From Marivita lacus (GTDB lineage: Bacteria; Pseudomonadota; Alphaproteobacteria; Rhodobacterales; Rhodobacteraceae): a stretch of 64,000 nucleotides of DNA. How positions within the stretch are numbered: position 1 is the stretch's first letter; each line of letters opens with the position of its first letter. A program made the position numbers and the translations under genes. This document shows, one piece after another, positions 8,184 to 53,816 of this stretch. The stretch covers positions 1 to 64,000 of the forward strand of contig NZ_BMFC01000010.1 of NCBI RefSeq assembly GCF_014637725.1. Reading direction: 5' to 3'. The notes beneath the pieces are model-generated. The model saw only the letters and a program-made list of their open reading frames with translations. It was not told the DNA's origin and did no database searches.

Positions 8184-10867
8184 GCACGCTCAACCTGCTG
8201 GTCGCGGTCTGCACGGCCTACGTGTTCTTCCTGTTCTTCGTCGCCTTCGCGGCCGACCGGCTGGCCCTGCAGGGCAAGAGGGCATGGCTGCGGTCACCGC
8301 TGATCTACACGCTGTCGCTGTCGATCTACTGCACCGCCTGGACCTTCTACGGCGCAGTCGGATCGGCGGCGCGCAACGGGTTCGAATACCTGACGATCTA
8401 TCTCGGCCCGACGCTCGTCATGGTCAGCTGGTGGTGGCTGTTGCGCAAGCTCATCCGCATCGGGCGCACGCAGAAGATCACCTCCATCGCCGACCTGATC
8501 TCGTCGCGCTACGGCAAGTCCAGCCTGCTGGCGGCGGGTGTGACGATCCTCGCGGTGATCGGCACGACGCCCTATATCGCGCTGCAACTGCAATCCGTGA
8601 CCCTGTCCTTTTCGGTCTTTGCCGCGCAATCCGACGGGCTGGCGGCGCAGGATCAGGCGCAGGTGGCGCTGTGGCTGTCGCTGGGTCTGGCGCTGTTCAC
8701 GGTGTTGTTCGGCACCCGGAACCTTGACGCAAAGGAACGGCATGACGGCGTCGTCATGGCCATCGCGGTGGAGGCGGTGGTCAAGCTGGTCGCCCTTTTG
8801 TCAGTCGGCATCTTCGTCGTTTGGGGCGTGTCCGGTGGTCTGACCGAAGCGCTGCACCGGATCGACGCCTCTGAATTTGGCGAATGGCACACCGACCGCA
8901 GCCGCTGGGCAGGGCTGATCTTTCTGTCGGCGGCGGCGTTCCTGTGTCTGCCGCGCACCTTTCAGGTGCTGGTGGTCGAGAACGATGACGAAAGCCATCT
9001 GCGCACGGCCAGCTGGGCCTTTCCGCTCTATCTGTGCCTCATCAGCCTTTTCGTCGTACCCATCGCGGTGGTCGGGCTCGACATCATGCCGGAAGGGTCG
9101 AACCCGGATCTCTTCGTTCTGACGGTGCCGCTGGCGCTGGGCGAGAACGGGCTGGCGATGCTGTCCTTTCTTGGCGGGTTCAGTTCCGCCACATCAATGG
9201 TGATCGTGGCGGCGATTGCGCTGTCGACAATGGTGTCGAACCACATCGTCATGCCGATCTGGCTGCACTTGAGCCCAAGCGGGGCCAGCGTGTCGGGCGA
9301 TGTGCGCGCGGCGGTCTTGATGGCGCGGCGCATCTCCATCGTCGCGGTGGTCATGCTGGGCTATCTCTATTTCCGCATGTCGAGCGGTGGCGCGGCGCTG
9401 GCCTCGATCGGTCTGGTGGCCTTCTGCGGTCTGGCGCAGGTGCTGCCCGCGATGCTGGGCGGCATGTTCTGGCGCGGAGCCACACGGCTGGGCGCGTTTG
9501 CCGGGCTGACCGCCGGGTTCGTGATCTGGCTCTATACGCTCTATCTGCCCAGCTTTGGGGTGGGCACGATCCTGCCCATGTCGATCATCGACAACGGGCT
9601 GTTCGGTTGGGCCTGGCTGAAGCCCGACGCGCTTTTCGGCATCACCGGTCTGGACCAGCTCATGCACGCCCTGCTCTGGAGCATGCTGTTCAACGTCGTC
9701 TGCTTTGTCAGCGTGTCGCTGGTGACATTCCCCTCGCCGCTGGAACGGCTTCAGGCGGCGCAATTCGTCAACATTTTCGACCATTCCACCAGCGCCCGCA
9801 GCTGGTCGGGGGGTACGGCACAGACCGAAGACCTGATGGTCATGGCGCAGCGGATCCTGGGCGCCGGAGAAGCGCAGGCGCTGTTTCTGCGTCACGCAAG
9901 GCGGCAGGGCGCGCGCGGCAACCTGCCTGCGCCGACACCGGATTTCCTCGAAGCGCTGGAGCGCGAGCTGGGCAGTTCCGTGGGCGCTGCAACGGCGCAT
10001 GCGATGGTGGGGCAGATCACCGGGGGCATGGCGATCTCGGTCGAAGACCTGATGGCGGTGGCGGATGAAACCGCGCAGATGCTCGAATACTCGGCCCGGC
10101 TCAAGGAACAGTCTCAGGAGTTGAGCCGCACCGCACTGGAATTGCGCAACGCCAACCAGAAGCTGACGCGCCTTTCGATCCAGAAGGACGCGTTTCTGAG
10201 CCAGATCAGCCACGAGCTGCGCACGCCCATGACCTCGATCCGGGCGTTTTCGGAAATCCTGCGCGATACCGACCAGATGACGCCTGCAGAGCAGTCGCGC
10301 TATGCCTCCATCATCCATGACGAGGCGCAACGCCTGACGCGCCTTCTGGATGATCTTCTGGATCTGAGCGTGGTGGAAAACGGGCAGGTGAACCTCAACC
10401 TGCGCGACGGCACGCTGCGTGACGCGCTGGATCGTGCGGTGTCGTCGGCGGGCATCGGCGAAGACGGGGTGCTGTTGGACATCGACCGCGATCCGTCCAG
10501 GGAGGGGATCGTGCTGCACACCGATCTTGACCGGTTGAGCCAGGTGTTCATCAACCTGATCGCCAATGCGCGCAAATATTGCGATGCCAAGGCCCCCCGC
10601 CTTGTCATTCGCGTGATGCAGGAAGCCGACCGCGTGGTGATTGATTTTCAAGACAACGGGTCGGGAATTGCACCCGACGCGGTTGACATGATCTTCGAGA
10701 AATTCGCCCGGGTCAGCGACCAGAAGGCTGGTGGGGCCGGACTTGGCCTCGCGATCTGTCGGCAGGTGATGACGCGGCTGGGCGGGTCTGTCGATTACCT
10801 GCCCGCCGCACGCGGCGCGACTTTCCGCGTGGTTCTGCCCTATCGCACCGCGATGGCCGCGCAATAA
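8180..10867 (+). CDS. Na+/solute symporter-sensor histidine kinase hybrid (CrbS/CbrA-like)
   Basis: An 895-residue inner-membrane sensor kinase. The first ~530 residues are a sodium:solute symporter-like domain with about 13 hydrophobic segments. A HisKA domain follows with the phospho-acceptor H678 in SQISHELRTPMTS. The HATPase domain has the N box NLIANARKY (~793), DNGSGIAP and GGAGLGLAI. No receiver or PAS domain is seen. The architecture matches CrbS/CbrA kinases; CrbS controls acs in Vibrio and Pseudomonas. Together with the adjacent receiver, the ScfR regulator and nearby acsA, this points to acetate or short-chain-acid sensing. The start overlaps the small membrane protein by 4 bases. 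Confidence 0.9.
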   Translation: MSTLNLLVAVCTAYVFFLFFVAFAADRLALQGKRAWLRSPLIYTLSLSIYCTAWTFYGAVGSAARNGFEYLTIYLGPTLVMVSWWWLLRKLIRIGRTQKITSIADLISSRYGKSSLLAAGVTILAVIGTTPYIALQLQSVTLSFSVFAAQSDGLAAQDQAQVALWLSLGLALFTVLFGTRNLDAKERHDGVVMAIAVEAVVKLVALLSVGIFVVWGVSGGLTEALHRIDASEFGEWHTDRSRWAGLIFLSAAAFLCLPRTFQVLVVENDDESHLRTASWAFPLYLCLISLFVVPIAVVGLDIMPEGSNPDLFVLTVPLALGENGLAMLSFLGGFSSATSMVIVAAIALSTMVSNHIVMPIWLHLSPSGASVSGDVRAAVLMARRISIVAVVMLGYLYFRMSSGGAALASIGLVAFCGLAQVLPAMLGGMFWRGATRLGAFAGLTAGFVIWLYTLYLPSFGVGTILPMSIIDNGLFGWAWLKPDALFGITGLDQLMHALLWSMLFNVVCFVSVSLVTFPSPLERLQAAQFVNIFDHSTSARSWSGGTAQTEDLMVMAQRILGAGEAQALFLRHARRQGARGNLPAPTPDFLEALERELGSSVGAATAHAMVGQITGGMAISVEDLMAVADETAQMLEYSARLKEQSQELSRTALELRNANQKLTRLSIQKDAFLSQISHELRTPMTSIRAFSEILRDTDQMTPAEQSRYASIIHDEAQRLTRLLDDLLDLSVVENGQVNLNLRDGTLRDALDRAVSSAGIGEDGVLLDIDRDPSREGIVLHTDLDRLSQVFINLIANARKYCDAKAPRLVIRVMQEADRVVIDFQDNGSGIAPDAVDMIFEKFARVSDQKAGGAGLGLAICRQVMTRLGGSVDYLPAARGATFRVVLPYRTAMAAQ

Positions 10868-46499: not shown

Positions 46500-46611
46500 G
46501 GGACCCTCCGACGTTGGATTTTGAGATTTCGTGGTCCGATGTTACAATCCGAATGGATACGCGCCGAACGATCGCTTTTCAGCCTCGCATGAACTGAATT
46601 CAGGCAGAGAC

Positions 46612-47523
46612 ATGGGACGAAAGTTACCCCCCTTCGCAGCCGTCCGCGCTTTTGAAGCGGCAGCACGGCACATGTCGGTCAAGGCCGCGGCTGATGAGCT
46701 TTGCCTGACACCGTCGGCCGTCAGTCACCAGATCAAGGCACTTGAGGGGTTTCTCGACACCCAACTTTTCGAGCGCTTCGGAAATCGGCTGGCGTTGACA
46801 CTGACGGGCGAGGCTTATGCAGGCAAACTGACCCATCTTCTTGACAGCTTTCTGGACGAGACGGAGGCGATCCATGCAGCGCCGCGACGCCTGCGCGTCT
46901 TGTCTACTCCGGGCTTTGCCGCGCGTTGGCTTGTGCCGAGGCTTTCGCGGCTCGAATTCGCGCAGGACGTCCGGCTGCGCGTGTCGAACGGGGCACCTTC
47001 CCTGGATTTCGCAACGAACGACGCTGACGTGGTGATCCAGTGGGCCGACCAGCCGAGGCCGGGTCTTCTGGTCGAGCCGTTGATGGCGTCGACGCGCTAT
47101 CCGGTAATCTCGCCCGCGCTCAAGGCGCGCGAGAACGTGACACGTCCCGAGGACCTCTTGCGGCTGACGCTTTGCTACGATGAAACCGATGATGCGTGGC
47201 CGCAGTGGTTCGACGCGGTCGGCCTTGCCGGGGTGCAGCTGCCGCAAGGGCCGACTTTTCCGAATTGCGAGCTTTCGACGACGATGGTGGAGCAGGGACA
47301 GGGCGTGTCGCTCGCCTATGATGCGGTGGTTCGGGGCACGTTGGCGTCGGGCCGGCTGGAACGGCTCTTTGAGGCCGTGACCTTGCCGATGGCGATCTAT
47401 TCGGTGGCTTGCCTGGAGACCCGCTCCGACGAGCCGCGGATCACCGCATTTCGCCAGTGGCTCAGGGCCGAGGCGGAGATGGAGGGGGTGCTGCCCCAAA
47501 GATACCGGGCAGCGGCCGAATAA
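46612..47523 (+). CDS. LysR-family regulator (GcvA-like)
   Basis: A 303-residue LysR-type regulator. The N-terminal winged helix-turn-helix is LPPFAAVRAFEAAARHMSVK followed by AAADELCLTPSAVSHQIKAL. The effector domain has STPGFAARWLVPRLSRL, typical of the GcvA/AmpR-like branch. The start MGRKLPPF at 46612 is set by homology. The neighbouring gene on its left, encoding a secreted zincin, is divergent, so it may be a target. The effector is unknown. Confidence 0.85.
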   Translation: MGRKLPPFAAVRAFEAAARHMSVKAAADELCLTPSAVSHQIKALEGFLDTQLFERFGNRLALTLTGEAYAGKLTHLLDSFLDETEAIHAAPRRLRVLSTPGFAARWLVPRLSRLEFAQDVRLRVSNGAPSLDFATNDADVVIQWADQPRPGLLVEPLMASTRYPVISPALKARENVTRPEDLLRLTLCYDETDDAWPQWFDAVGLAGVQLPQGPTFPNCELSTTMVEQGQGVSLAYDAVVRGTLASGRLERLFEAVTLPMAIYSVACLETRSDEPRITAFRQWLRAEAEMEGVLPQRYRAAAE

Positions 47524-47697: not shown

Positions 47698-47982
47698 TCA
47701 GTTGTTCGCGGTCAACGGATCGATGATCTGAGGGATCTCGGTGATCGACGAGACCGGAATGCCGCTGAGTTCGGAGTGTTTCTTCACGGCATCCTCGTCC
47801 TTGGCCAGGTAGACGCAGAACGACTTGTCGCCTGCCAGATAGCTGTGTTGCCATTGAATGTCCGGGCCAAGTGTTTCCAGCGCCTGGTTCGAGGCGCGGG
47901 CCGCACCGCAAAGTTCGGTCATCGAAAAGCTGCCGATCCCGGGAATGCTTCTTTCGATCATGAAGCGTTTCATCTGTGCCAT
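47698..47982 (-). CDS. DUF4242 protein (SCO4226-like)
   Basis: A 94-residue protein of the DUF4242 family (ferredoxin-like fold; a Streptomyces member, SCO4226, binds nickel). It has MKRFMIERSIPGIG at the start, IQWQHSYLAGDKSFCVYLAK in the middle, and HSELSGIPVSSITEI near the end. The ATG at 47982 has an ideal AGGAGGAACC ribosome site; an upstream ATG at 48012 is less likely. It is divergent from the LysR gene at 48120, so that regulator may control it. Confidence 0.85.
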   Translation of the reverse strand: MAQMKRFMIERSIPGIGSFSMTELCGAARASNQALETLGPDIQWQHSYLAGDKSFCVYLAKDEDAVKKHSELSGIPVSSITEIPQIIDPLTANN

Positions 47983-48119
47983 GTCTGGTTCCTCCTGTGA
48001 CTGACCCGTCAAGCTTGCGCGTCACATCGCGGATTCCCTAACGAGATTTTCTTTGCATCGGAAAACCTGACCTTCGCAAAACAGATGAATTTGATGCTGA
48101 CTTAAGGTAATCTTTAGCA

Positions 48120-49055
48120 ATGGCTGGAACCCAGCACCTCCGCGCCCTTCAGGCGCTTGAACTTGCGGTTCGTCACGGTTCGATCCGGCGTGCGGCCGAG
48201 GAATTGGCGATCACACCCGCAGCAGCCGGGCAACGCATTCGCGCGTTGGAGGATTATCTGGGAACTGACCTGTTGCTGCGCGGACGGTCAGGGCTGCATC
48301 CGACGCCCGCGCTCGAACATGCACTGCCAGACCTGCGCAGCGCCTTCGCCGCATTGGACCGGGTCAGCGAGACCCTGGATTTCCAGCGCATCTCTGAAAT
48401 CCACCTGGTCGCTGATCCCGACTGGACCGAACTCTGGCTGTTGCCACGCTTGCCTGCCTTCCGGGAAGCGCATCCCTACATCTGTTTTTGCATCAACGGA
48501 GAGGGCGATGTCCCGGTGCGACTCGGCGCTCCGGACATTCGCATAAGCCGTTCAGAGGATGCCAAGGGCGACATCCTGTTCCGTGATCTGCATGTCGCGA
48601 TCACGGGGCCCGACAATCTTCGCCGCTTGGGAGATTGGGATCGTGACTTTGAACTCGAAGGATTGCCGTTGTTGCATATCGATCCGGATCAGAAAGAGTC
48701 CTGCCTGCCGGGATGGCCGGAATGGGTCGCACAGCATGGAATGCGGCGCGAAGGTGCTGACCGGGGCGTCAACTACCGCCATCTGAGACAGGCTTTGGCA
48801 GCAGTGCGTGAAAACGTGGGGTTCCTCATCTGCGGGCTGTGCCTTGCCCGACAGGATATCGAAGCCGGCAACGTCGTTCTCGTGTATCCGGCTGACCGGC
48901 ACCTATCGGAGGTGGCACCCTTCAGGATGTTTCTACGCAACGAAACCCGGATGACGGCACAGGTGCGGCGGTTTGCAGACTGGTTGATGGAACAGGCGCG
49001 GGAATCACAGGAGTGGATTAGCAGAACAGCCGGCGCAAAGCCGAAGCAAGAGTGA
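48120..49055 (+). CDS. LysR-family regulator
   Basis: A 311-residue LysR-type regulator. The helix-turn-helix is LRALQALELAVRHGSIRRAA then EELAITPAAAGQRIRALEDY. The effector domain starts IHLVADPDWTELWLLPRL. The predicted HTH Ser of the usual SxVSxQI motif is replaced by AAAGQRI, an uncommon variant. It lies divergent from the DUF4242 gene and upstream of the convergent DUF1326/DUF2182 pair. Effector and targets are unknown. Confidence 0.83.
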   Translation: MAGTQHLRALQALELAVRHGSIRRAAEELAITPAAAGQRIRALEDYLGTDLLLRGRSGLHPTPALEHALPDLRSAFAALDRVSETLDFQRISEIHLVADPDWTELWLLPRLPAFREAHPYICFCINGEGDVPVRLGAPDIRISRSEDAKGDILFRDLHVAITGPDNLRRLGDWDRDFELEGLPLLHIDPDQKESCLPGWPEWVAQHGMRREGADRGVNYRHLRQALAAVRENVGFLICGLCLARQDIEAGNVVLVYPADRHLSEVAPFRMFLRNETRMTAQVRRFADWLMEQARESQEWISRTAGAKPKQE

Positions 49056-49123: not shown

Positions 49124-49930
49124 TCATGTTGGCAGGAGCACGGCAATGCCGGACAGGATCAGCATTCCGCCAGTGACGGCCACTGTCGCTTTCCCGAAGA
49201 CTGCCAATTTTTCTGCTGCAACAAGAAGTGCCAGCCCTGCAATCCAGTAGAGGTTCATCACACCACCCACGAAAAGCAGCAGCATGAGTGCCCAGCAGCA
49301 GCCAAGGCAGAAAACTCCGTGCCGCAGCCCCATTGACCAAGCGCCGCGAGCGCCGGGCTGCCAATGGTTTGACAGAAAGACCGCGGGAGCCTGACAGTGG
49401 CTCAGGCAGGCACGTTTGAGCGGTGTAAACTGGTAAAGCCCGGCAAGGATCAGGACGGCGCCGGCAAGCCAGCCACCCCGCAGGCTCATCATTCCGGGTG
49501 CAATCAGACCAAGCGGCTGCATCGCCCATTGCAGGGTGGCGGTGAGGGCAGAAAAGAACGCCCAAACCACCAGATAACCGGCGACGAAAGCCCATGTTGA
49601 CCGGAGTTCTTGTGGCGCCTCCGGCCTGCGCGTCAGGCTGTGGTGCAGCAGGATCGTCGGTGCGGCACTCGGCACCATCATGGCGATCATCATGATCCAC
49701 CACATCAGGAACATCAGCGCGGCATAGGGCAGCGTCCATGCCATTGCATGCCCCATCTCCATCGGTTGACCCGGCAGGCGTGCCATGCGCGTCATGTCGA
49801 GCGCGCTCATGTCCATGCCGATGCCCGCGACGGTGTAGATCACCGCCGCAAGCTCGATCATGGCGAGGCCACCCAGAAACAGCCACCGATCTTGCCGAAG
49901 TGCTGCAATCAGCCAGCCGCCGCCCTGCAT
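49124..49930 (-). CDS. DUF2182 membrane protein (putative metal-binding)
   Basis: A 268-residue inner-membrane protein with six or seven hydrophobic helices, extremely rich in Met and with His and Cys (MEMGHAMAW, LMFLMWWIMMIAMMVPSAAP, ACLSHCQAP, FCLGCCWALM). The family is described as predicted metal-binding integral membrane proteins. It overlaps the DUF1326 gene by one base, so the two are co-translated and probably function together. Substrate and direction of transport are unknown. Confidence 0.8.
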   Translation of the reverse strand: MQGGGWLIAALRQDRWLFLGGLAMIELAAVIYTVAGIGMDMSALDMTRMARLPGQPMEMGHAMAWTLPYAALMFLMWWIMMIAMMVPSAAPTILLHHSLTRRPEAPQELRSTWAFVAGYLVVWAFFSALTATLQWAMQPLGLIAPGMMSLRGGWLAGAVLILAGLYQFTPLKRACLSHCQAPAVFLSNHWQPGARGAWSMGLRHGVFCLGCCWALMLLLFVGGVMNLYWIAGLALLVAAEKLAVFGKATVAVTGGMLILSGIAVLLPT

Positions 49931-50574
49931 CAGGCCGCGCCTTCGATCACCCCGGCCTGGGACATGTGCAGGCGTGCAAAATGGGTGTGGGTGTCCACAA
50001 GGGGGTCGAAGGCGATCTCTCCTCCGGTCAATGTCGTGCGCCCGCTGGCGACTTCAGCCTCGCGGAACTCGAACCCATTGGGCAGCTTCAGGAGCGCACG
50101 GTGCGGTTCGCCGGTGACGATATTGGGAACGGGCTGCACATCGATGTCGGCGATGCCATCGATCCTGATCCGGCCGGTACGCGCATCCATGTCGAGTGTG
50201 AGGTCGATGGGCTTTCGCAGGGTAGGATACTTCGTCGGGCTCATCTTTGCATAGACGAACCACATCGTCTTCATCTCGTCGGTGTCCTGCCCGGTCATGA
50301 TCCGCTCCAGCGCGGCGGCCTGCGCCTCGGTCGCGGCGGTATCGATCACCAGTTGCATCTGGCCGTTGCCCTCGTGGATCGCGCCGGGCCAATGATAGAT
50401 CCCGGCTGCGCGCAGACCTGCCAGGCCGGTGTCTCCGTGATGGCCGCTCTCGATGTCAAAAACGATGGCCGCCTCGCAATTTCCGCGGTTCGGCAGGACA
50501 CCGAACTGACAGGGGCAGCCGAAATTGCAGTTGCAATTGGCCAGTTCCAGACCGTGAATTTCCCAAGGTGTCAT
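49930..50574 (-). CDS. DUF1326 protein with N-terminal Cys cluster
   Basis: A 214-residue soluble protein of the DUF1326 family. The N-terminal ELANCNCNFGCPCQFGVLPN gives four closely spaced cysteines, followed by GHHGDTGLAGLRAAGIYHWP with His residues. These look like metal ligands, though this is inference. No signal peptide is visible, so it is probably cytoplasmic. It is the upstream partner of the DUF2182 membrane gene, a pairing seen in many proteobacteria, and has a good AGGAGGAAC ribosome site. Confidence 0.83.
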   Translation of the reverse strand: MTPWEIHGLELANCNCNFGCPCQFGVLPNRGNCEAAIVFDIESGHHGDTGLAGLRAAGIYHWPGAIHEGNGQMQLVIDTAATEAQAAALERIMTGQDTDEMKTMWFVYAKMSPTKYPTLRKPIDLTLDMDARTGRIRIDGIADIDVQPVPNIVTGEPHRALLKLPNGFEFREAEVASGRTTLTGGEIAFDPLVDTHTHFARLHMSQAGVIEGAA

Positions 50575-50712: not shown

Positions 50713-52809
50713 TCACAACAGCTCCCCCAGCATCGAGGCTGCGCGGGCGGCACCGTCCCGCGCGACCGGGTGCGGGATGCGGGGGTTGAGCAGTTCATCC
50801 TGCATCGCCTCGGCAATCCGCTCGGGGCTGCTCTCGGCATAACTCATGCGACGGCCAGCGTTGTAGCGGTCGAGCCGGGCGGCGACATGGAAGTTTTGTT
50901 CGAAGTGATTGCGCAGCGGAAAATAGAGGAACGGGGTGCCGGCGGCGGCCAGTTCCATGCAGGTGGTCAAGCCCCCCTGCACCAGTGCGAGGTCGCAGGC
51001 GGCCAGATGGCGGTCGAGGTCCGGCACGAAGGCGCGCGCCTCCACCCCCTCGGGCCAGTCGAAACCGGCGGGGTCGAGCCGGGGGCCGGTGACGACGATC
51101 ATGCGCAACTCGGGGATGCGGGCGCGGGCAAACGGATAAGCGGCCAGAATCCGCCGGATCAACTGCGCCCCGACGCCTGACCCGCCCACGGCGACAATGC
51201 AGGTCTTGCGGCCATCGTCATAGCCGAACTCGGCGCGCAGGTCGGCGCGCGCGCCAAAGTCGGCGGGGTGCGTGCCTATGATGTAGTCGGAAAACTCGTA
51301 GTGCCGAGGGACCCAGTCACGCATGTGCGGCAGGCCGTCGCCGAAGGTCAGATCGGCAATATCTTCCTTCCCACCCACGAAGATCGCACGGTCCCGCACC
51401 AGCGGGTTCCGTTCGACATGCCCGATCATTTCGGCATTGTAGTCTCTGGTCAGGAACGCCTCGCGCGGGCCGTTCCCGGCGAACGGCACCCAGCCTACGA
51501 AATCGGTGAACCAGGCGATCTGGCTGCGTTTGAGGTCGGGATGTTCGTGCCAGTAGTGATCGACGTCCCAGGCCTCGTCGGCGATCACGAGGTCGTAGCG
51601 GTCCGCTTCCAGAATATCCTGGAAGACCATGAAGTTCTTGATAAGGATTTCGTCCATGTTGCGGATCGCCTGAAAGGCGTTCAGGTCGTGCTCGCCGGCT
51701 TCAGCCTCGATATGCGCGGATTCATTGGCGAGCAGGCGGCTTGCCGGGTGCAGCGCTTCGTCATTTGCGGCAAGAAACGGCGTGACAGGGTCTTGCGCCA
51801 GCCAGTCTACCTGAAGATCAGGATGCAGTTTGCGCAACTCCCGCGTCACCGCCAGATCGCGACGGGCATGTCCCAGCCCGATAGGGGACGACATGTAAAG
51901 GGCGCGCTTCTGACGCCTTGGCCGCGGTTTCGGCGCGGGCGCGTAGGTTCCCAGGTGTCGGGCGAGAAAATCGCGCATCGTCACGTTGAACCACGCCGGA
52001 TACCTCGCGTGGACGGCATGCCCACCGCCGGAACGGATTTGCAATTCCCCTCCGGTGATTTGCGCAATGCGATATGAGCATTCGGGTGGTGTTATCGCGT
52101 CGGCATCACCGACCAGGATCAGGCTCGGGCACTGGACGCGGGCATACATCGCCTCGTCGATAAGGGCTGCGCCTTCTGCTCGACTGTCCAGTGTCATGGC
52201 AAGCATTTCGCCGTCGCCTTCAAGCGCCCAAGCCAGCGCGTCGTCCTGTTGCTTGGTCGAATGAAGCTCGTTGTGGACCTTGTCGAAAAAGAACCGCAGA
52301 AAATCGGCATAGTTGCGCCGCCAATGGCGGCGGTTGTATTTCTGCCAACCCTCGGGAGCCTCCACCTCGGCCTCCCAATGGGCGCCGCGTTCCGGGTAGG
52401 GCGGTACAATCGGTGCCCAGGCCCCCGTGGACACCACTGCATCGACCCGGTCTGGCCATAGGGCGGCCGCGGCGAAAGCCACCGCGCTGCCGAACGAAAA
52501 TCCGACCAGCGTCGCAGCATCTGTTCCCGTTGCATCCATGACCGCAGTGATATCTTCAATCACCGCATCGAAGCTGTAGGCGTCGGGCGCGTCGGGGCGA
52601 TCAGACTTGCCGTTGCCACGCGGATCAAACACGATCACGCGGAAATGTTCCGCAAAATAGGGGACCTGCGCCTTCCAGCAGCGCGAATGGATGATCGCCC
52701 AGGTCGGCACGAAAAGGATCGTGCGGTCGCCCTCGCCGTAGACCTCGTAATACAACCCGACCCCGTCGCGGTCGATCCGGCCTGTTTTTTGGGGCTGTGC
52801 CGCGCGCAT
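50713..52809 (-). CDS. Alpha/beta-hydrolase fused to a glycosyltransferase
   Basis: A 698-residue two-domain cytoplasmic protein. Residues ~1-285 are an alpha/beta hydrolase with nucleophile S105 in LVGFSFGSAV, an acid (D235 or D237) in LVGDADAITPP and the base H264 or H267 in GGGHAVHARYP. After an APAPKPRPRRQ linker (~290-300), residues ~302-698 are a GT-B glycosyltransferase like MurG/UDP-GT. It has YMSSPIGLGHARRDLAVTRE at the acceptor end and QGGLTTCMELAAAGTPFLYFP then NHFEQN in the donor site. The fusion suggests coupled ester/lactone cleavage and glycosylation of a small hydrophobic molecule, an inference. The TetR gene upstream is three bases away. Confidence 0.88.
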   Translation of the reverse strand: MRAAQPQKTGRIDRDGVGLYYEVYGEGDRTILFVPTWAIIHSRCWKAQVPYFAEHFRVIVFDPRGNGKSDRPDAPDAYSFDAVIEDITAVMDATGTDAATLVGFSFGSAVAFAAAALWPDRVDAVVSTGAWAPIVPPYPERGAHWEAEVEAPEGWQKYNRRHWRRNYADFLRFFFDKVHNELHSTKQQDDALAWALEGDGEMLAMTLDSRAEGAALIDEAMYARVQCPSLILVGDADAITPPECSYRIAQITGGELQIRSGGGHAVHARYPAWFNVTMRDFLARHLGTYAPAPKPRPRRQKRALYMSSPIGLGHARRDLAVTRELRKLHPDLQVDWLAQDPVTPFLAANDEALHPASRLLANESAHIEAEAGEHDLNAFQAIRNMDEILIKNFMVFQDILEADRYDLVIADEAWDVDHYWHEHPDLKRSQIAWFTDFVGWVPFAGNGPREAFLTRDYNAEMIGHVERNPLVRDRAIFVGGKEDIADLTFGDGLPHMRDWVPRHYEFSDYIIGTHPADFGARADLRAEFGYDDGRKTCIVAVGGSGVGAQLIRRILAAYPFARARIPELRMIVVTGPRLDPAGFDWPEGVEARAFVPDLDRHLAACDLALVQGGLTTCMELAAAGTPFLYFPLRNHFEQNFHVAARLDRYNAGRRMSYAESSPERIAEAMQDELLNPRIPHPVARDGAARAASMLGELL

Positions 52810-52812
52810 CTT

Positions 52813-53424
52813 TCAATCCTCCTGTTGAGTCTCCGCAAGGGCGATCAGGTCTCCAACGCGACGCAGGGCCGCACGCATGGGATGTTGGGCATCGTCAAAG
52901 CCCAGCAGGATGAGGGATTCAGACCCGATGAAGGCCGCGCCGATCAGAGTGGCGATTTCCTCGGCGCGGAAGGGGCCAAGCGAGCCAGTCTGCCGTTCCA
53001 CGTCGCGGACCAGTTCCAGGATCAGCCCCTGCCATTGCGCGATGGCGCGGCGCACGGCATCGCCGACCGCCGGGTTGGACCAGCCCACCGCCATCAACTC
53101 CTGCAACACGCGCACATAGCCAGAGGCCAGATCCTCCTCCAGATAGTCGCAGGCACGCGCCCATTTTTGCGAAACGCTAAGGTCGGTCCGGTGAAAGGTT
53201 TCGGCCTGACGCGCGATCAACGCATCGTTCATGTATTCGAAAAGGGCGAGGACCATCCCTTTCTTGGATCCGAAATGATAGCGGATCTGACTCATTTGCG
53301 TGCCGGCTTCAGTTGCAACCGCCCGGGTCGACAGTCCGGCGTATCCTTCCGCCATAAGAACACGCTTGGCTGCGTCCAATAAATCAACCTTCGGGTCTCG
53401 ACGATGTTGCACGACGGTTTGCAT
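52813..53424 (-). CDS. TetR-family transcriptional regulator
   Basis: A 203-residue TetR-type repressor. The helix-turn-helix is LLDAAKRVLMAEGYAGLSTR then AVATEAGTQMSQIRYHFGSK. The ligand-binding C-terminus resembles TetR_C-type domains. The start MQTVVQHRRDP at 53424 is chosen; the frame extends upstream over the palindrome at 53477 without homology. Its gene is directly upstream of, and co-transcribed with, the hydrolase-glycosyltransferase gene, so it probably represses both until a ligand, perhaps a substrate of the fusion enzyme, is present. Confidence 0.87.
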   Translation of the reverse strand: MQTVVQHRRDPKVDLLDAAKRVLMAEGYAGLSTRAVATEAGTQMSQIRYHFGSKKGMVLALFEYMNDALIARQAETFHRTDLSVSQKWARACDYLEEDLASGYVRVLQELMAVGWSNPAVGDAVRRAIAQWQGLILELVRDVERQTGSLGPFRAEEIATLIGAAFIGSESLILLGFDDAQHPMRAALRRVGDLIALAETQQED

Positions 53425-53476
53425 GAACAGTCTCTCGAAGCTGGCGCAGGCACCAAATTGGTGGACAATGATTCTA

Positions 53477-53492
53477 ATTCGTTCGAACGAAT
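53477..53492. promoter_or_regulatory. Perfect palindrome upstream of the TetR gene (candidate operator)
   Basis: The 16-bp sequence ATTCGTTCGAACGAAT is its own reverse complement and lies 53-68 bases before the TetR ATG. Length and placement match TetR-family operators, so autoregulation of the TetR/hydrolase-glycosyltransferase operon is likely. Confidence 0.7.
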
Positions 53493-53816
53493 GATACCAC
53501 AACATTGTAAATTTTCAAAGCCTGCTATCGCAGGGGTCGCGCTTGTCGGGAGTAGGGCCACGCATGCCTGGCACCCCCCTGACGGACTGAGCTGCAATAC
53601 TACGATTTGATTTGAAGATGCGATCGCTCACAGGACGCTCAACGTACCAGCGTTGACCGCCGGGATGCGAATTTTCCGGAACCCGGGGCTCAGAAGCAAC
53701 GCGCGACGCGCGTCTTCACCCCAGCACATGTCGGGCAATCTCGCGCAGGTGACGATCATATGAACAGTGAATGGTCGCTAAAAACGCCCTTGACCTTCGG
53801 CAAAGGCGTGTTGGCG
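53493..53816. other. Intergenic DNA, no feature recognised
   Basis: About 320 bases between the TetR palindrome and the inverted-repeat cluster. Short frames on both strands lack homology, ribosome sites and codon bias. Nothing convincing is seen. Confidence 0.5.

Follow-up and report, generated by a model that had tools for sequence, protein, structure and literature searches.

Glycosyltransferases (GTs) of the GT1 type, among them the macrolide and small-molecule transferases 2iya (which we take to be OleI), OleD, YjiC/YojK and UGT109A1, carry motifs of known role, an N-terminal GxGH histidine and a C-terminal donor region with E..EQ, and glycosylate small molecules broadly or to inactivating effect. 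Aryl esterases and the BioH-, RutD- and PcaD-like enzymes are alpha/beta hydrolases with a Ser-Asp-His triad, and the self-regulated TetR-family repressors of detoxification or efflux operons are encoded by a leading gene, tetR, with a palindromic operator at its own promoter. In a stretch of 64,000 nucleotides from Marivita lacus (RefSeq assembly GCF_014637725.1, contig NZ_BMFC01000010.1, positions 1 to 64,000; hereafter the window), counterparts of all three occur in one unit, in which a tetR gene precedes a gene encoding a hydrolase and a GT as a single polypeptide. With a probability of roughly 0.58, the unit is an inducible cassette of a 'hydrolyse-and-cap' kind, under its own repression, and serves to inactivate a small molecule, perhaps a thiol-bearing one. 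The features that carry this reading are the following.

50,713–52,809, minus strand: hydrolase–glycosyltransferase fusion of 698 residues, with the hydrolase at about residues 1–288 and the GT-B glycosyltransferase at 301–698 (Pfam and AlphaFold2 model).
52,813–53,424, minus strand: predicted TetR-family repressor of 203 residues (TetR_N, PF00440, residues 15–61, 42.8 bits versus a gathering threshold of 24).
53,477–53,492, no strand assigned: putative TetR operator ATTCGTTCGAACGAAT, a perfect 16-bp palindrome 52 bp before the tetR start.
53,491–53,518, minus strand: predicted sigma-70-type promoter, TTGAAA, 16 bp, TATCAT (10 of 12 matches in a consensus scan; shuffle mean 0.2).

The unit differs from each of the described systems. 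The window GT shares the whole GT-domain fold (Z 25–28) and both motifs with the GT1-type enzymes, but it is only about 16–20% identical to them and is fused to a hydrolase. The hydrolase half has the fold and the triad of the esterases named above, whereas the protein carries a C-terminal GT and reaches no equivalog cut-off among the matches listed. The fusion misses the cut-offs of the macrolide glycosyltransferase MGT subfamily (TIGR01426; 31.8 versus 260 bits), the 3-oxoadipate enol-lactonase PcaD (TIGR02427; 79.8 versus 255.85 bits) and the macrolide esterases EstT (NF041759; 36.5 versus 450 bits) and EstX (NF033124; 26.5 versus 600 bits). In contrast to the known class of TetR systems, the regulator would govern a hydrolase–GT enzyme, joined by methyltransferases in homologous units, and its operator sequence is common to Alphaproteobacteria and Actinomycetota.

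Both halves of the fusion retain their active sites. Abhydrolase_1 (PF00561) covers residues 30–267 with 103.5 bits (gathering threshold 25.8), and Glyco_tran_28_C (PF04101) residues 538–680 with 43 bits (gathering threshold 22). Ser105, Asp237 and His264, which we assign to the Ser-Asp-His triad from knowledge of the family, are identical in 67 of 67 aligned fusions. A preliminary description of this DNA, made from its letters alone, had already proposed an intact fusion, and the alignment agrees; it had left the choice between Asp235 and Asp237 and between His264 and His267, which now falls on Asp237 and His264, as Asp235 (45/67) and His267 (21/67) vary. In the GT half, His314, Asp318, Asp411, Glu412, Glu619, Glu637 and Gln638 are likewise identical in all 67, and among 54 GT domains of a broader sample that includes actinobacterial and distant members all but Asp318, which is nearly so, remain invariant. 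By analogy with GT1 enzymes, His314 is presumably the catalytic base and Glu637–Gln638 contact the sugar. In all 66 comparisons the GT half is the better conserved of the two, with a median identity to the window protein of 70% versus 47% for the hydrolase half.

The AlphaFold2 model of the whole fusion has a mean predicted local distance difference test (pLDDT) score of 91.4 and a predicted template modeling (pTM) score of 0.90, and the GT domain modeled alone has a pLDDT of 95.3. A Foldseek search with the whole model listed 50 matches, all alpha/beta-hydrolase-fold entries by title (aryl esterases, an esterase that degrades acyl-homoserine lactones (AHLs), C-C hydrolases and others). The GT-domain model matched 2iya (Z 27.9), YojK (27.8) and UGT109A1 (27.6), and also CalG1 and MurG (Z 26.1); as a predicted structure, it lies closest to the small-molecule transferases.

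A contig scan with an alignment of six fusions yielded 107 relatives; the 80 best were retained, and these are mostly alphaproteobacterial (Rhodobacterales, Bradyrhizobium, Reyranella and others). The remaining carriers among these 80 are a betaproteobacterial metagenome-assembled genome (MAG), a SAR324 MAG, an Acidimicrobiales MAG and Actinomycetospora. The Acidimicrobiales contig nests among Alphaproteobacteria in the tree and may have been transferred or mis-binned. Together with a Deinococcus plasmid, where a TetR gene accompanies the same fusion, its annotation split into two genes at an in-frame TAG, these make 81 loci. The occurrence is patchy: matches were found in 8 of 295 genomes of the window's family and in 5 of 398 of its phylum, the window's own genome and one relic counted in both, and in 32 of 396 genomes of the phylum of Actinomycetospora, some in part only. 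The relic belongs to a same-family genome (G055:C1:1713903-1714229) that retains only some 108 C-terminal GT residues, 81% identical, and is a decayed copy. As to whether the fusion is a common and characterized enzyme, a point raised by the preliminary description, it proved to be common, and searches of open-licence full texts listed no characterization of the fusion and no description of its neighbors.

A single open frame spans the fusion in 75 of the 81 loci, which rules out an artefact; the frame is interrupted by a stop or frameshift in three (L090, L095 and L016). Hydrolase and GT are separate adjacent genes in L036, and a free hydrolase precedes a hydrolase–GT fusion in L048 and the actinobacterial L150. 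In L077, a free GT gene follows a free hydrolase gene, and between them lies an out-of-frame remnant of the start of a second hydrolase; this layout suggests how a fusion can come apart again. In L151 the order is reversed, the GT gene preceding the hydrolase gene with overlapping stop and start codons, and in L160 a distant GT (42% identity) has a separate alpha/beta hydrolase gene directly upstream. The coupling of hydrolase and GT thus survives without the covalent link, which argues for a common pathway. Tandem duplications affect the whole fusion in L132 and the hydrolase in L048, L077 and L150. Two further associations were rejected. The fusion matched no phage record at 1e-10, and PHROGs gave only two esterase/lipase families and one reductase family; a PADLOC search for anti-phage defence gave only a weak TAP-like match.

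Three bases (52,810–52,812) separate tetR from the ATG of the fusion at 52,809, as the preliminary description had stated. The tetR start was taken at 53,424; a mechanical choice of the in-frame ATG at 53,505 would place the palindrome within the gene. The palindrome itself, correctly located before, is the only perfect one of at least 16 bp in the window, and it abuts the −10 element of the predicted promoter. Because about one such palindrome is expected by chance per 64 kb (an estimate from 64000/4^8), it is weak evidence on its own; we take it to be real because of its position and, above all, its conservation.

The motif was chosen blind, by ranking all 4096 possible 12-bp palindromes over 78 TetR-upstream regions. 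The first rank fell to TCGTTCGAACGA, found within one mismatch in 28 of the 78 regions (control expectation 1.0), and the second to TCGGTCGACCGA, found in 20 (control expectation 0.6). With the same tolerance, TCGKTCGAMCGA occurs in 45 of the 78, compared with 46 of 1560 control stretches. Most of the regions lacking a site had an mddA gene upstream, so that the operator was expected before mddA in those loci; a site was indeed found there in 25 of 28 loci with a leading mddA and a TetR, versus 11 of 700 controls. Where mddA lies downstream, sites precede both mddA and tetR in L058 and L073, and tetR only in L034. Taking both positions together, 77 of the 86 loci in which a TetR is close have TCGKTCGAMCGA within one mismatch ahead of tetR or mddA (71/80 and 6/6 in two groups), compared with 46 of 1960 controls. 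A close TetR means a TetR score of at least 240, a threshold set post hoc after some loci had been seen; below it, none of 12 loci has a site, or none of 11 testable ones, as L051 is truncated. The form TCGGTCGATCGACCGA precedes the TetR gene in the actinobacterial loci L136, L138, L142 and L150. The palindrome therefore appears to behave as a TetR operator in two phyla, and these sequence comparisons lend good support to a predicted autorepression circuit of TetR at a conserved operator.

The operator is also locally confined. A single copy of its 12-bp core is present in the window's genome of 4.77 Mb. The 16-mer TCGGTCGNTCGACCGA is present in 18 of 20 whole genomes (reversed control pattern, 0); all 22 matches fetched fall in the loci of the unit, and the other places listed lie no more than about 3.5 kb from one of these, on the same contigs. 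A wider TetR regulon in the window's genome was considered and rejected: the 16-mer at up to two mismatches gave only one other site, ATTCATTCGAATGAAT (L189 3146-3161, equal to G000:C10:123645-123660). Two symmetrical changes set this site apart from the TetR operator. It is located 10 bp ahead of a gene whose product looks like a GntR-type regulator, with genes of the phosphonate (phn) type downstream, and the site probably belongs to this regulator itself. In five Bradyrhizobium loci (L049, L052, L054, L068 and L096), operator copies that overlap with a shift of 4 bp (TCGGTCGGTCGACCGA and similar) come directly after TTGACT in the flanks shown; this arrangement points to a repressor site inside the promoter, perhaps one at which the sites of two dimers overlap.

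Two genes on the same strand follow the fusion and were overlooked in the preliminary description, which had the coordinates of its unit right but probably drew it too short.

49,930–50,574, minus strand: DUF1326 protein with a Cys-rich N-terminus, CNCNFGCPCQF (PF07040, 157 bits); probable operon member.
49,124–49,930, minus strand: PpoB2 (PF09948, 'Copper chaperone', 218.3 bits), whose start is the last base of the DUF1326 gene; probable operon member.

The window operon thus probably extends through DUF1326 and PpoB2. In the 138 bases between the fusion and the DUF1326 gene, RNA structure was no better than in shuffles (z −0.74), and no attenuator is therefore claimed. The pair recurs beside the unit in Rhodobacterales and actinobacterial loci; a literature search on DUF2182 or DUF1326 found nothing.

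The partners of the unit were counted over 113 loci with distinct GT domains, 98 of which have a TetR within 5 kb of the GT. MddA, a methanethiol S-methyltransferase that is a partner and not the fusion itself, adjoins the unit in 35 loci, MT_F3 (HTH_65 plus methyltransferase) in 16, DUF1326 and/or PpoB2 in 16 and the methyltransferase MT_F21 in 4. No locus holds two of these classes. On a tree, at least 10 changes of class are counted over 71 labeled rows, the 42 partner-less rows being left out; the tree was built by a quick search, 44 of its 110 inner branches are weak and several branches are long, and only this count is used. MddA, MT_F3 and PpoB2/DUF1326 each adjoin the unit in both Alphaproteobacteria and actinobacterial genomes. 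Judging from these arrangements, the partner genes, namely MddA, two other methyltransferases and DUF1326/PpoB2, replace one another. The wide spread of the family and the homologous units with methyltransferases under the same operator had been missed before, as had the two downstream genes.

All seven of the 35 MddA neighbors that were tested exceed the NF045656 cut-off. MddA was found in 20 of 32 unit-bearing genomes searched; in five with a single copy (G1084, G1085, G1087, G1089 and G1104) the locus of the unit carries an MddA, and in five Bradyrhizobium genomes with MT_F3-type units MddA lies elsewhere. Homology of MT_F3 to MddM1 was considered and set aside by size alone, as three measured MT_F3 proteins have 351–356 residues versus 210 reported for MddM1. 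A term search of two MddA papers (PMC5607357 and PMC12904073) returned no TetR regulator, hydrolase or glycosyltransferase, the single 'tetr' match in PMC5607357 being tetracycline.

In the scheme that we favor, a TetR dimer would sit on the palindrome at the promoter when inducer is absent and shut its own operon, comprising tetR, the fusion and, in the window, probably DUF1326 and PpoB2. TetR would be released by a ligand, which could be the harmful compound or the product formed from it. The hydrolase half would then cleave an ester, lactone or thioester and expose a nucleophilic group, onto which the GT half would move a sugar taken from a nucleotide-sugar donor. In related units the group could be capped, instead or in addition, by a methyltransferase that shares the operator. 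This chemistry is proposed by analogy with the families: a serine hydrolase may expose a group that a GT1-like transferase, and possibly an exchangeable methyltransferase, could cap, and of these methyltransferases at least MddA stands behind the operator of the unit. Actual repression and catalysis, the order of the two reactions and the detoxifying purpose are what we infer from these features, and detoxification by cleavage followed by glycosylation fits them best. The self-contained regulation, the patchy occurrence, the exchange of partners and the locally confined operator are together better explained by inducible detoxification than by biosynthesis or quorum quenching.

Several observations weigh against this scheme. 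The resemblance of both halves to known enzymes is at the level of superfamilies, and of 34 NCBIfam matches for the fusion the 25 listed all fall below their cut-offs; MurG is nearly as near to the GT model as the small-molecule transferases are. A site within one mismatch is missing from nine of the 86 close-TetR loci: five have two mismatches (L018, L033, L038, L063 and L064, the last also cut by the contig end), L060 is cut by the contig end, L078 starts near one so that the gene before tetR is not visible, and L082 and L085 have sites lying outside the stretch used. Four actinobacterial MddA loci without a TetR also lack the operator, and in 15 of the 113 loci no TetR of this kind lies within 5 kb. 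All four partner classes are missing from 42 of the 113 loci, or from 29 of the 88 with 3 kb on both sides, which implies that methylation is not a general part of the unit. Moreover, DUF1326 and PpoB2 do not obviously fit a conjugation scheme.

The alternative that survives best is a biosynthetic or housekeeping unit in which the fusion makes or remodels an endogenous glycoconjugate, such as a glycolipid or secondary metabolite, with TetR providing feedback by the product; we consider it unlikely. The likeness to MurG keeps such a role compatible with the GT fold, the MJ1255/VC2487 and MurG models of NCBIfam match the fusion below their cut-offs, and the stronger conservation of the GT half is as expected for a fixed acceptor. 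Against these stand the scattered presence within one family, the change of partners and the confinement of the operator to one locus per genome in 18 of the 20 genomes searched and in that of the window. Among the neighbors in partner-less loci, 20 proteins scanned out of 143 flanking open reading frames listed included no polyketide or peptide synthase, a scan that was not a systematic search for biosynthetic clusters. The same 20 proteins comprised a methyltransferase and Lumazine_bd_2 in L028, Lumazine_bd_2 in L138, MipA in L072 and L086, a metallo-beta-lactamase fold in L050 and L129 and a TIR protein in L154, the others being without a match or unrelated.

A regulon for reactive-sulfur or thiol stress, in which H2S, methanethiol or another thiol is the inducer, MddA methylates and the fusion cleaves thioesters and S-glycosylates, appears distinctly improbable. 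It would account for MddA behind the same operator and for an OsmC-type gene in L136 and L150 (83% identical to each other; Pfam OsmC for L150) that has its own operator copy about 35 bp before its start. On the other hand, the window's genome was searched for MddA and has none, units in Rhodobacterales mostly have either DUF1326/PpoB2 or no partner from the four classes, and S-glycosylation would be a purely conjectural step. Quorum quenching, in which the hydrolase would be an AHL lactonase and the GT would modify its product, is very improbable: the AHL-degrading esterase Est816 (5egn), which also appears in the fold list, is the best sequence match among solved structures (E 1.5e-19, a similarity only), but aryl and haloperoxidase-type esterases match the hydrolase half about equally well, carriers of the unit include Actinomycetota and a Deinococcus plasmid, neither group being known for AHL signaling, and the methyltransferase partner is left without a role, so that the signal quenching suggested in the preliminary description finds no specific support.

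Returning to inducible detoxification, the MddA and OsmC members make thiols or reactive sulfur one possible substrate class. A tentative extension, which we hold to be unlikely as a whole, is that the loci form an unnamed, horizontally spread defence regulon against thiol-forming compounds (e.g., thioester or dithiol antibiotics and reactive sulfur), in which the fusion unmasks and glycosylates, an exchangeable methyltransferase (MddA or an unrelated one) methylates, and one TetR–operator pair of Alphaproteobacteria and Actinomycetota senses. MddA is known for the production of dimethylsulfide; if the extension were true, some bacterial MddA enzymes would serve mainly to inactivate thiol xenobiotics. 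The cleave-and-cap scheme, if true, would represent a bacterial counterpart of phase I/phase II drug metabolism, housed in one polypeptide. At the sequence level, some mddA genes, a source of dimethylsulfide, are now tied to a defined repressor and operator. As the enzyme travels with its regulator and operator, the natural inducer could be sought by a simple reporter screen, and it would point to the substrate and to why these bacteria switch on MddA.

Two further genes were observed near members of the family. A gene for a TIR-domain protein (TIR_2, 85.7 bits) is found immediately downstream of a remote fusion-family member (L154 in G313, 9096–10046). In the window, a gene for an SCO4226-like nickel-responsive small protein (47,698–48,012, minus strand; PF14026) is located between two LysR genes at 46,531–47,523 and 48,120–49,055.

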